This document shows positions 58,353 through 62,691 of a DNA stretch of 64,000 bases, piece by piece. The notes beneath the pieces were generated by a model. That model worked only from the letters and a program-made list of their open reading frames with translations, made no database searches and was not told the DNA's origin. Made by a program: the position numbers and the translations under genes. This DNA is from Phycisphaeraceae bacterium. Its GTDB lineage: Bacteria > Planctomycetota > Phycisphaerae > Phycisphaerales > UBA1924. The stretch lies in the NCBI GenBank assembly GCA_019636515.1, contig JAHBXI010000001.1:310001-374000 (forward strand), in the 5' to 3' direction. The stretch's first letter is position 1; every line of letters begins with the position of its first letter.

Positions 58353-58844
58353 TCAGGTGACCTTCCCGGCGGCGACGGCCTGGGCGGTCATGTCGCGGAC
58401 GTACCGCTGGAACTCGTCGTGAAGGATCTTCATTTTCTTGTCGTCGATCATCTTCTGGAACGACTCTTCCTGCTCGATGATCTTCATGCGGTCGACCCAA
58501 CTCTTGTAGTAGTCGTCTGGGAGTTGCCTCATCCGGTGGCTGAACCAGACGATCTCGAAGATGGAGAGTTGCATGAGGTTCATGAAATGCTCACGGATCT
58601 CCTGGTCGGTCTGGAGGTCCACGACGTCGTGCTTGTAGACACGGGCCAGGGAGGGGTCCTCGACCCGCATCCGGCGCAACTGCATCTGGAGTTCGACCAG
58701 TTTCGTGAAATTTGAGACGTACGCGGCCCTGCGCCAGTGTCGGAACTGAAGTCCCGTGTAGACAAGGCCGAAGGCGAAGATCGTGCTGGTGATGAACTGG
58801 AGGGCGACTTTGAGCCATTCCAGGATCGTGTCGGAAGGAGGCAT
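58353..58844 (-). CDS. Small hypothetical membrane-anchored protein
   Basis: A 163-residue protein I do not recognise. It has one N-terminal membrane segment (WLKVALQFITSTIFAFGLVY, about 10-29), then a soluble helical region with a strongly charged pattern (LQMQLRRMRVEDPSLARVYK, YKSWVDRMKIIEQEESF). The C-terminal half could form a coiled coil. ATG 58844 is chosen; a much longer reading from 59375 would run through the repeat arrays and overlap the metallopeptidase. No ribosome-binding site is obvious. It is divergent from the metallopeptidase gene. Confidence 0.6.
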   Translation of the reverse strand: MPPSDTILEWLKVALQFITSTIFAFGLVYTGLQFRHWRRAAYVSNFTKLVELQMQLRRMRVEDPSLARVYKHDVVDLQTDQEIREHFMNLMQLSIFEIVWFSHRMRQLPDDYYKSWVDRMKIIEQEESFQKMIDDKKMKILHDEFQRYVRDMTAQAVAAGKVT

Positions 58845-58988: not shown

Positions 58989-59060
58989 GGTTCCGGTCTT
59001 GGTTCCGGTTTTGGTTTCGGTCCTGGTTTCGGTCTTGATTTCGGTCTTGGTTTCAGTCTG
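58989..59060 (+). repeat. Tandem repeat, 6 x 12 bp (GGTTTCGGTCTT)
   Basis: Six consecutive 12-bp units with consensus ggtttcggtctt, each differing from the consensus at no more than two positions. The plus strand here has almost no A. The region lies in the 334-bp gap (58845-59178) between two divergent genes. Confidence 0.9.
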
Positions 59061-59080
59061 GGAGTGGCACCGGGTCTGGC

Positions 59081-59134
59081 TTTGGGCTTGGGTTTGGTTT
59101 TGGGCTTGGGTTTGGTTTTGGGCTTGGGTTTGGC
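59081..59134 (+). repeat. Tandem repeat, 3 x 18 bp (TTTGGGCTTGGGTTTGGT), G-quadruplex potential
   Basis: Three adjacent copies of an 18-bp unit with only the last base of copy 3 differing. Each unit holds two GGG runs and one GG run, giving six GGG runs in 54 bp on the plus strand, enough for a G-quadruplex. It ends 45 bp before the metallopeptidase start. Confidence 0.9.
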
Positions 59135-59178: not shown

Positions 59179-61209
59179 GTGGCGAAGCGAAATGCCGGTT
59201 CAGGCGTGAACCGCTCGGTGTTTTCGAAGCCGGCGAAGCCCTCAGGGGCGTTGACGCGTCGTCGCCTTCGTGCGTACGCGTTTGACCCGAGCCTGAGCAT
59301 CAAACTCGAGACGTGGCGGATGAACCAGGTGACCCTGAGCGTGCCGTGGGAGCCGCTTGGGATCTGGGATGGCAAGCGTCTGATCCCCGGCCCGGTCGGG
59401 GACTACGTCGAGATCGTGGATGAGGATCCGGCGACGGGGATGGCCTACCCGGCGGTCAACCTCGATGACCCCGAGTTGCTCGCCACCGACGGCCTTCCCG
59501 CCAGCGAGATCGACCCGCGGTTCCATCAGCAGATGGTGTACGCGGTGGTCATGAGCACGATCACGCACTTTGAGCGGGCGCTTGGCCGAACGTCGCTGTG
59601 GGCCCCGAGGTGGGTGGCGATCAAGACGGATCGCGGGAAGGTCGAGTGGCGCCCCGAGTACGTCCACCGGCTGCGGATCTACCCGCACGCGATGCGGGAG
59701 GCCAACGCGTACTACAGCCCGGATAAGAAGGCCCTGCTGTTCGGCTACTTCAAGGCGAACGACCACCAGACGGGCGCCATCATGCCCGGCTCAACGGTTT
59801 TCACGTGCCTGTCGCATGACGTGATCGCGCACGAGACCACGCACGCCCTGCTCGACGGCCTGCACCCGTACTTCACGGAGGCGAGCAACCCGGACGTGCT
59901 GGCGTTTCACGAGGCGTTCGCGGACATCGTTTCGCTGTTCTCGCGGTTCTCGATCCCCGAGATCGTGCGCGCGGAGATCGCCCGCTCGCGGGGCCGGATG
60001 AGCGACGCGGACCTGCTGGGTTCCCTGGCGATGCAGTTCGGCTCGGCGATCGGGAGCCGGGACGCGCTTCGGACGTACATCGGCGTGGAGCCGGATCCGG
60101 GGAAGATCCGGGGGACGTTCCAGCCGCACGCGCGTGGAGCGATCCTGGTGGCGGCGGTGTTCGACGCGTTTCTGGGGATTTACCGTTCGCGCACGGCGGA
60201 CCTGGTCCGCCTGGCGTCGGGCGGGACCGGGATGCTGCCGGCGGGCGACATCCACCCGGACCTGGTCGAACGCCTGACGCAGGAGGCGTGCAAGGCGGCC
60301 CGTCACGTGCTGACGATGTGCATCCGGGCGCTGGATTACTGCCCCCCGGTGGACCTGACGTTCGGGGAGTACCTGAGGGCGTTGATCACGGCCGACGCGG
60401 ACATGGTCCCCGACGACGACAAGCATTACCGCGTGGCCATGATCGAGGGGTTCCGCCGCCACGGGATCTTCCCCCAGGGGGTGAACTCGATGTCGGAGGA
60501 GGCGCTGCGGTGGGAGCGCCCGAAGTTCAGCCGCAAACTGGAGGAGTGCCTGGACGAGGCCATCGCGGCGGTGGAAGGCACGAGCCGTTCGGCCTCGGGG
60601 CGTGGGGCGCGGGGGGCCTCTTCCGATCACGAGTACGTGCAGGCCGCGTCGGTGCCCGACCGCCTGACCCGGCGCGGGCGTGAGTGGACGGCGATGGAAC
60701 GAGCCTGCGCGATCATCCGAGACAAACTGATCGAGTTGCTGGCCGATGAAGACGACGTGCAATGGCAACTGGGCGTGTGCGTCGGGCGGGGGGCGCACGG
60801 CTCGGTGCACACGACCGACTCGAAGGGTCGGCCGAGTTTCCAGGTCAACCGACTCCGCCGGTCTCGACGCCTCGGACCCGGCGGGCTTGAGGTCGGCGAT
60901 TACGTCCTTGAGATTACCCAGAAGCGAGACGGGTACTTCGATCCCGCGAGGCAGGCGAAGGCGGATAAGAAGGGCGCCCGGCCGAGCCAGGTTCGCCCCG
61001 AGAGCGGCCGTGATTTCCTCTTCCGGGGAGGGTGCACGCTCAACATCGACATGCGTTCGCGGCGGGTCCGGTACTGCGTCGCGAAGAACGTGCTGAGCGA
61101 GCAGCGCCTGCAGCGTCAGCGCGAGTTCATCGGCGGGACCGAGCCGCGGCTTGGCATCTATTCTCGGATTCCCGATCGTGAGACGTTCGCGATGCTCCAC
61201 CGCTGCTGA
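59179..61209 (+). CDS. Gluzincin-type zinc metallopeptidase of unknown role
   Basis: A 676-residue protein with a thermolysin-type zinc site: HETTH at residues 218-222 and the third ligand Glu245 in HEAFAD. The opening RRRLRAYAFDPSLSIKLETW recalls a little-studied group of large metallopeptidases. No signal peptide is seen, so it is probably cytoplasmic. The C-terminal 200 residues (from about 480) lack similarity I know and contain LEVGDYVLEITQKRDGYFD. GTG 59179 was chosen because the family-like part starts about 30 residues later and AAGGATCGGGGGG precedes it; the frame is open further upstream only through repeats. Followed by the MBL-fold gene after 45 bp. Confidence 0.75.
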   Translation: MAKRNAGSGVNRSVFSKPAKPSGALTRRRLRAYAFDPSLSIKLETWRMNQVTLSVPWEPLGIWDGKRLIPGPVGDYVEIVDEDPATGMAYPAVNLDDPELLATDGLPASEIDPRFHQQMVYAVVMSTITHFERALGRTSLWAPRWVAIKTDRGKVEWRPEYVHRLRIYPHAMREANAYYSPDKKALLFGYFKANDHQTGAIMPGSTVFTCLSHDVIAHETTHALLDGLHPYFTEASNPDVLAFHEAFADIVSLFSRFSIPEIVRAEIARSRGRMSDADLLGSLAMQFGSAIGSRDALRTYIGVEPDPGKIRGTFQPHARGAILVAAVFDAFLGIYRSRTADLVRLASGGTGMLPAGDIHPDLVERLTQEACKAARHVLTMCIRALDYCPPVDLTFGEYLRALITADADMVPDDDKHYRVAMIEGFRRHGIFPQGVNSMSEEALRWERPKFSRKLEECLDEAIAAVEGTSRSASGRGARGASSDHEYVQAASVPDRLTRRGREWTAMERACAIIRDKLIELLADEDDVQWQLGVCVGRGAHGSVHTTDSKGRPSFQVNRLRRSRRLGPGGLEVGDYVLEITQKRDGYFDPARQAKADKKGARPSQVRPESGRDFLFRGGCTLNIDMRSRRVRYCVAKNVLSEQRLQRQREFIGGTEPRLGIYSRIPDRETFAMLHRC

Positions 61210-61254
61210 TGCCCGGGGCGCGACCCGAGCCATCCACCTCCGGGAGAGATCGAC

Positions 61255-62691
61255 ATGGCGAAGAAACCGTCGGATCCCGCCGTTCACGTCCGCATGTACC
61301 GAGTCGGGCTGGGGGACTGCTTCCTGGTCACGCTTGACGGGGCTTCGCCGTTCCACATGCTCATCGACTGCGGGATGTGGGAGGGTTCCGCCGCGGCCAA
61401 GGCCCGCATGAAGCAGTGCGTGGCGGACATCGCGAAGGTCACCGGCGGGCGGCTCGACATACTGGTGGTCACGCACGAGCACTGGGATCACGTGTCGGGG
61501 TTCTCGACCGGGCAGGGGCGTGATTTCTTTGACCGGGCGACGATCGGCCGGCTGCTCGTGGCCTGGACGGAGGACCCCGGCAACGACGACGCCCGAGCCA
61601 TCCGGAATTCGACCGCGGCGTTGCGGATGTCGTTGACGCGGGCGCTGCGGGCGGCGGAGCAGACCGGCCTCAGGGGCCTGGCCGACGAGCAGGTCCTGCA
61701 CATCAACGGGGTCGGCAAGAACCTTGGGACGGGGGCGGTGCTGGGGGCTAGCCCGTCCGATTCGTTCGACTGGATCAAGAGCCGGTGCAACGCCTCCCCG
61801 ACGACGGAGGTGATCTACGCCGCTCCGGGGAAGAGCGTGGCGATTCCCGGCGCCCGGATCCATGTCCTGGGTCCGCCGCAACGGCTCGCGGCCCTGCGTA
61901 AGAACGACGGCGGGGCGGCCGGGCGAACATCGGGCGAGTCGTATTTCGACGCCGATTCTCCCGACGCGCTGGCCGAGGCGCTCGACAACGGGGTGACCGA
62001 GGCGCTGTTGTTCGCGGCGTCCGGACGGATGCATCGCCCGTCCGCCTACAAGGGCCGTTGGCCGTTCACCCACGGCGACGGCGGCGCCGACCTGGCCACC
62101 GCCCGAAGAACGGACCCGTTCCTGTCGGCGATCCACGCCCGGCATCGGGAGGAGGCGTGGCGGTCGATCGATCGAGACTGGGCCGCTTCCGTGTCGAGCA
62201 TCGCGCTGCGGCTGGATCGATTCACCAACAACACAAGTTTGGCGCTGGCCATCGAACTCGAGCACAGCGGCCGGGTGCTGCTGTTTCCCGCCGACGCCCA
62301 GTTCGGCAACTGGTCCTCGTGGAATGATGTGGTGTTCCCCGAGCACCCGGACCTGACCGCGTCGGATCTGCTCCGCCGCACCGTGCTGTACAAGGTCGGG
62401 CATCACGGCAGCCACAACGCCACGCTTCGCCGGCGCGGCATCGATCTCATGACCTCTCCCGACCTGGTCGCCATGATCCCCGTCGACGAGGCGTTCGCCC
62501 GGTCACAGCCGCCAAACGGGTGGAACATGCCGTACCCGGCCCTGCTGCAGGACCTGCGGACCCGGACCAGGGGGCGCATCCTGCGGGCCGATACGGGTGC
62601 TCCGCCGCCGAGCAGCGTGGATGCGGCGGTGCGGCGTCGCTTCTCGCGCGCGGTCAAGGTCACCCCGGCCTGCGTGAAGTATTCTCTCTGA
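61255..62691 (+). CDS. MBL-fold metallo-hydrolase (ComEC-like beta-lactamase fold)
   Basis: A 478-residue metallo-beta-lactamase-fold protein. The metal-binding motif is VVTHEHWDHVSGF (HxHxDH), preceded by HMLIDCGMWEG. Later elements are LLFPADAQFG and YKVGHHGSHNAT, as in the soluble domain of ComEC-like nucleases. An insertion of about 200 residues, unlike known relatives, lies between them. There is no membrane segment, so it is probably cytoplasmic. GGGAGAG lies 5 nt before the ATG. It shares an operon with the metallopeptidase, which suggests a joint function. Its substrate (nucleic acid or another phosphodiester) is not known. Confidence 0.8.
   Translation: MAKKPSDPAVHVRMYRVGLGDCFLVTLDGASPFHMLIDCGMWEGSAAAKARMKQCVADIAKVTGGRLDILVVTHEHWDHVSGFSTGQGRDFFDRATIGRLLVAWTEDPGNDDARAIRNSTAALRMSLTRALRAAEQTGLRGLADEQVLHINGVGKNLGTGAVLGASPSDSFDWIKSRCNASPTTEVIYAAPGKSVAIPGARIHVLGPPQRLAALRKNDGGAAGRTSGESYFDADSPDALAEALDNGVTEALLFAASGRMHRPSAYKGRWPFTHGDGGADLATARRTDPFLSAIHARHREEAWRSIDRDWAASVSSIALRLDRFTNNTSLALAIELEHSGRVLLFPADAQFGNWSSWNDVVFPEHPDLTASDLLRRTVLYKVGHHGSHNATLRRRGIDLMTSPDLVAMIPVDEAFARSQPPNGWNMPYPALLQDLRTRTRGRILRADTGAPPPSSVDAAVRRRFSRAVKVTPACVKYSL

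Follow-up and report, generated by a model that had tools for sequence, protein, structure and literature searches.

The metallopeptidase gene and the metallo-beta-lactamase (MBL)-fold gene at 59179-62691 of the window (the whole 64,000-nucleotide stretch of Phycisphaeraceae DNA that was analyzed) form a co-inherited module whose reality is strongly supported by sequence comparison, and they probably encode a pro-nuclease that is licensed by a metallopeptidase, with an immune function of the abortive-infection type as the likeliest role. The original prediction, made from the letters of the window, had placed an HExxH peptidase and a ComEC-like MBL-fold enzyme 45 bp apart behind a repeat-rich region. 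Both genes were confirmed on the plus strand, with 45 bp between the peptidase stop and the MBL ATG, which is preceded by GGGAGAG. The features of the pair were as follows.

59179..61209, plus strand: peptidase gene (P0002), 676 aa, GTG start; homologous in the 80 fetched loci
59830..59844, plus strand: HExxH zinc motif (HETTH), residues 218-222; H218, E219, and H222 identical in 63/63
59908..59925, plus strand: HEAFAD motif, residues 244-249; H244, E245, and D249 identical in 63/63
60127..60129, plus strand: H317 of the peptidase, identical in 63/63
60526..61206, plus strand: peptidase C-terminal domain, about residues 450-676; confidently modeled except for loops
61255..62691, plus strand: MBL-fold gene (P0001), predicted gated nuclease, 478 aa, ATG start
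61474..61491, plus strand: HEHWDH metal motif of the MBL protein, residues 74-79; H74, H76, D78, and H79 invariant in 62 sequences
61573..61806, plus strand: insertion 1 relative to ComEC-type MBL domains, about residues 107-184, from spacing comparison; core with pLDDT below 50 at 153-162
61879..62226, plus strand: insertion 2, about residues 209-324; disordered core at 259-278
62062..62067, plus strand: Pro270-Phe271 inside disordered loop 2; P in 61/62 and F in 60/62, with freely diverging surroundings
62293..62412, plus strand: the remaining active-site motifs, Asp347 (PADAQ) and K380-V-G-HHGS (H383/H384); D347, K380, H383, and H384 invariant

A TTG near 59251 was a candidate alternative to the GTG at 59179 as the peptidase start, and conservation of the peptidase began at residue 28. 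The repeat-rich region, present as predicted, lay immediately 5' of the pair at 58989-59134 and 5' of the conserved protein; it comprised a 12-bp unit repeated 5.9 times at 58989-59059, GGTTTCGGTCTT, and an 18-bp unit repeated 3.5 times at 59072-59134, GGGTTTGGCTTTGGGCTT. No extension matching this region was found in the peptidase homologs, and the repeats, which lacked conservation and had nothing linking them to the pair, were rejected as a system component. An 874-aa open reading frame on the minus strand (59791-62415), overlapping both genes, was dismissed as a GC-rich shadow because all homology backed the plus strand. A codon-usage caller chose this frame over the true peptidase and MBL genes, and automatic annotation of the family in GC-rich genomes may therefore err.

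The pair was flanked by lepB-, lspA-, dksA-, and accA-like genes and by a superoxide dismutase-like gene, all named by eye from their translations, which contradicted the claim that it had no metabolic neighbors. A 163-aa protein with a weak DUF6082 match was encoded upstream at 58353-58844 on the minus strand and adjoined the pair in each of the three genus members, with 81 to 82% identity. Elsewhere in the family, this gene also occurred in genomes that lacked the pair, having spread independently, and it was not counted as a component. In an empty-site test among the genus members, with the 163-aa gene and accA as flanks, no clean insertion site was defined, because the former spreads independently and the latter was not linked to the pair in genome G001. 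A HerA-like ATPase gene was rejected as a third gene, since it occurred only in genome G002 and G001 had a DUF7133/cytochrome c protein in that position.

A scan of GTDB species genomes yielded at least 569 peptidase relatives among the matches listed. The best 80 of these spanned Planctomycetota, Acidobacteriota, Pseudomonadota, Bacteroidota, Chloroflexota, Armatimonadota, and two archaeal bins, and in all 80 the peptidase gene was followed immediately by an MBL gene of the same orientation, in variable surroundings. Neither rare co-occurrence nor constant association with a known pathway, the two outcomes that the original prediction had named as counting against it, was thus observed. Co-occurrence is lower among remote relatives, the best 80 loci being the closest matches, and 392 planctomycete genomes were for this reason sampled without closest-relative bias. 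In that sample, all eight strong MBL matches (E < 1e-12; genomes G000, G107, G139, G154, G235, G236, G271, and G349) adjoined a peptidase gene, and the weaker peptidase matches in G117, G142, G167, and G344 (E 1e-10 to 1e-37) had no MBL partner. Distant family members without an MBL neighbor were seen at loci L161, L162, L163, and L164, one of them adjoining a HEAT-repeat protein. The trees of the two proteins correlated (mirror-tree r 0.69), and permutations reached at most 0.21. Together with hundreds of homologs in which active-site residues are invariant, this pattern indicates a real pair, far beyond chance.

The same distribution bears on the best-surviving alternative, a nonimmune role in which ordinary selection would maintain the two enzymes for housekeeping proteolysis and nucleic-acid processing (in repair, competence, or stress). 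This reading accommodates the surroundings in the window's genus, where the pair is chromosomal among housekeeping genes, and its presence in all three genus members tested, the only carriers among 61 relatives overall (3/61). It also accommodates a PADLOC comparison of nearest neighbors, in which 30 families were matched in 129 neighbors and 57 in 129 controls; the comparison was crude, with controls consisting only of random planctomycete genes and with kinase-type models dominating, and the expectation that defense genes would lie nearby was not borne out by it. It showed no defense-island enrichment. The nonimmune role is nevertheless unlikely, given the patchy presence of the peptidase (5 full-length matches in the 392 planctomycete genomes), the 30 of 62 peptidases whose nearest relative came from another phylum, the many plasmid copies of the pair, and the interchangeable effector-type partners described below. 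A phage-borne origin was rejected: viral contigs gave a single partial match, and phage records gave two.

The peptidase matched no family of Pfam, NCBIfam, or PADLOC at E <= 1, and among its homologs Pfam M4 was matched by 1 of 68, at an E value of 0.3. Its AlphaFold2 model had a mean pLDDT of 85 (plasmid-derived rows were left out of the alignments used as input for structure models). In Foldseek, the best match of the model was the M4 enzyme vibriolysin (E 3.4e-4), and aureolysin was also matched (E 1.3e-3), with a probability of 1.00. A profile search against the PDB found neutral protease and thermolysin weakly (E 0.19 to 0.9), with the zinc motifs in register and HEAFAD aligned with the glutamate/aspartate motif of these enzymes. 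By this alignment, E245 would be the third zinc ligand, with E245 and D249 placed as in M4 gluzincins. By analogy, H317 is a candidate equivalent of the catalytic His231 of thermolysin. The HExxH motif, the downstream Glu, and the M4-type fold of the model therefore point to a thermolysin-like (M4) gluzincin. The protein shares with thermolysin, vibriolysin, and aureolysin the HExxH motif, the Glu ligand and Asp, and the fold, but it falls below the Pfam M4 threshold, has no secretion signal or prodomain recognizable by eye, shares an operon with an MBL gene, and carries an extra C-terminal domain of about 225 residues. Q581 and G618 were invariant in this domain, for which no relative was found by the PDB profile search or by Foldseek, both of which explained the catalytic domain only.

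The MBL protein matched Lactamase_B (E 3.4e-8), Avs1a (E 3.5e-10), and LmuA (E 6.2e-13), the Avs1a score of 39 bits lying far below the curated cutoff of 420. In single-sequence searches, similarity to ComEC, Avs1a, and LmuA was confined mainly to the first 80 to 90 residues or so. When profiles were aligned with hhalign, the match to Avs1a-type nucleases (a comparison set of 12 proteins from Pseudomonas genomes, 3 of which exceed the curated cutoff) had an E value of 1.7e-15 over 344 columns and ran along the length of the MBL protein. Nine residues, D38, H74, H76, D78, H79, D347, K380, H383, and H384, were invariant in 62 sequences, and the last four corresponded to the invariant D271, K297, H300, and H301 of the Avs1a-type nucleases. 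The model (pLDDT 85) was a stand-alone MBL fold with insertions, and its best fold match was the ComEC MBL domain 9ic4 (E 1.6e-11). The protein resembles this DNA-uptake domain in fold and metal motifs but lacks the transmembrane channel part and has two large insertions. Profile and model thus indicate homology to Avs1a/HamM/LmuA-type nucleases and ComEC.

The segment between HxHxDH and NxxS measured 222 to 292 residues in the MBL family, 147 to 198 in Avs1a-type nucleases, and about 81 in ungated ComEC-like proteins, of which three were measured. The additional residues formed two insertions, one on each side of an LGP strand, and the core of each had a pLDDT below 50 (259-262 and 264-278 in insertion 2). 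Insertion 2 lay at the location of insertion 2 of the Avs1a-type nucleases, and the model predicts that both insertions are disordered and border the active site, in positions matching those of the Avs1a type. The near-invariant Pro-Phe dipeptide of loop 2 is a candidate recognition, cleavage, or gate site. In loop 1, a Phe at position 150 was common (53 of 62 homologs) and absent from the window copy. Bulky hydrophobic P1' residues suit thermolysin-like (M4) enzymes.

These insertions weigh on a second alternative, in which the pair would be a defense or toxin module with the peptidase itself as the effector, cutting proteins of the host or the phage, and with the MBL enzyme controlling it, for instance through destruction of a signal made of nucleic acid or nucleotide. 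The strict conservation of the peptidase active site, the distant peptidase relatives without MBL, and a weak fold match of the MBL model to the cyclic-nucleotide hydrolase Apyc1 are in keeping with it. However, the Apyc1 match fell far below that of ComEC, and the gating insertions and conserved loop dipeptide would be left unexplained, so that this alternative ranks below the nonimmune role and is improbable.

The preferred reading, a pro-nuclease licensed by a metallopeptidase, draws on known systems. Tuck et al. 2025 (PMC12799240) showed that the MBL pro-nuclease of Hachiman, AVAST, and Canu has two disordered insertions and is cut by a linked trypsin-like or caspase protease, after which it degrades DNA and protects against phage; MBL homologs beside proteases of other families are also noted there. 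The trypsin-MBL pairs of Hachiman (HamM/protease-HamA), AVAST type 1 (Avs1a/Avs1b), Lamassu, and DRT (PMC12799240) share with the present pair a ComEC-related MBL nuclease with an adjacent protease gene, disordered insertions that are two in number and match in position, co-inheritance, and mobility between contexts. The present pair differs in having an M4-like gluzincin in place of a trypsin-like or caspase protease, the MBL gene downstream rather than upstream, larger insertions, and usually no HamA, STAND, or SMC fusion. The loop residues kept here are Pro-Phe in loop 2 and the common Phe in loop 1, whereas those of the known systems are Ile or Gly, with Ile in the trypsin-MBL pairs. The caspase-nuclease Canu (CanABC; PMC12799240) is similar in having a protease upstream of a gated MBL, variable third components, and TPR-type domains in some cases, and differs in its caspase; lipases and subtilases are the partners here. 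No CanB-like conserved gene was detected in neighbor clustering of the pair loci. A literature search returned no description of the metallopeptidase pair, and a supplementary tree in PMC12799240 that covers several protease families may include the clade.

Among the 86 loci examined for partners, about 40% had an added lipase or protease-type enzyme, fused or adjacent. These included a subtilase (S8) fused to the peptidase N terminus in 12 loci, with the Ser motif in 12/12; a fused abhydrolase/LCAT-like domain in 4; a patatin-family gene upstream or downstream in about 16, with SGGS and DGG motifs in the examples read; and an adjacent Tle1-like lipase in 3. The proposal of an undescribed two-gene system consequently stood as far as a conserved module is concerned (80/80 of the best loci) but not as a strictly two-gene arrangement. 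In addition, there were two TPR-S fusions, and in two distant planctomycete relatives a TIR-NACHT-FGE or AAA_16-TPR STAND protein was encoded downstream of the pair, with two small genes intervening in one of them. The gene order in Rhizobium leguminosarum 248 was CBASS cyclase, DUF6602, patatin, peptidase, MBL, HamA, and helicase. On a Rhizobium plasmid (locus L094, 7884-16896), patatin, peptidase, and MBL genes were followed by HamA, helicase, and HamC-like genes, HamA lying 76 bp downstream of MBL; this locus is possibly the metallopeptidase equivalent of Hachiman systems that have a nuclease-protease pair. No lipase, subtilase, TPR-S, STAND, or Hachiman partner stood beside the window pair, whose neighbors were the housekeeping genes and the 163-aa gene, and no STAND or SMC gene, the partner genes of AVAST type 1 and Lamassu, adjoined it. 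In at least half of the loci, that of the window among them, no extra sensor gene was seen. A third alternative, that the MBL enzyme hydrolyzes a phospholipid or other ester and forms a peptidase-activated, lipid-degrading effector set with patatin, LCAT-like, or Tle1 partners, has in its favor the lipase partners in about 20 loci and the phosphorylcholine esterase CbpE as second-best fold match of the MBL model (E 3.3e-7), but it is the least likely of the three, because ComEC was a far better fold match, the match to Avs1a-type nucleases ran along the whole profile, and a lipase was absent from over half of the loci.

A defense role is the best reading of the pair because of its Avs1a/LmuA-type homology, the exchange of lipase and protease partners, the STAND, TPR-S, or Hachiman neighbors of some loci, and plasmid carriage. 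The suggestion of a defense- or toxin-type pair thus gained from these sequence comparisons but has against it the PADLOC comparison and the housekeeping surroundings in the window's genus. The loop 1 Phe missing from the window copy, the loci with no extra sensor gene, and the distant peptidase relatives that have no MBL neighbor also speak against the preferred reading. In the mechanism that we infer, which comprises sensing of infection, cleavage of the MBL protein by the peptidase, DNase activity, and phage defense, an intracellular thermolysin-like gluzincin would stay idle until infection was signaled by its C-terminal domain, by a partner that is fused or adjacent, or by an oligomerizing sensor. 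The triggered peptidase would then cut the disordered gating loop or loops of the MBL protein, with the Pro-Phe site as the prime candidate, and the unblocked ComEC-like active site would degrade DNA, halting the infected cell. The lipase or subtilase of some loci would be a further effector or a cascade member. A metallopeptidase-licensed DNase is proposed because the MBL anatomy fits the scheme of PMC12799240, with a metallopeptidase replacing the serine or cysteine protease.

The chances seem evenly balanced that the family represents a widespread undescribed immune system whose gated DNase is activated by an intracellular metallopeptidase of the thermolysin-like kind, acting by itself or together with a phospholipase or subtilase. 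If so, a third protease class, unrelated in fold to trypsins and caspases, would have been recruited to the same pro-nuclease switch, which would back the idea that prokaryotic immunity uses proteolytic activation as a general currency. From the lipase and subtilase partners, it seems that several killing enzymes may be licensed by a single protease. A precise prediction, a cut at the Pro-Phe loop, would follow, and a function would be assigned to a large protein family that has no Pfam, NCBIfam, or PADLOC entry.
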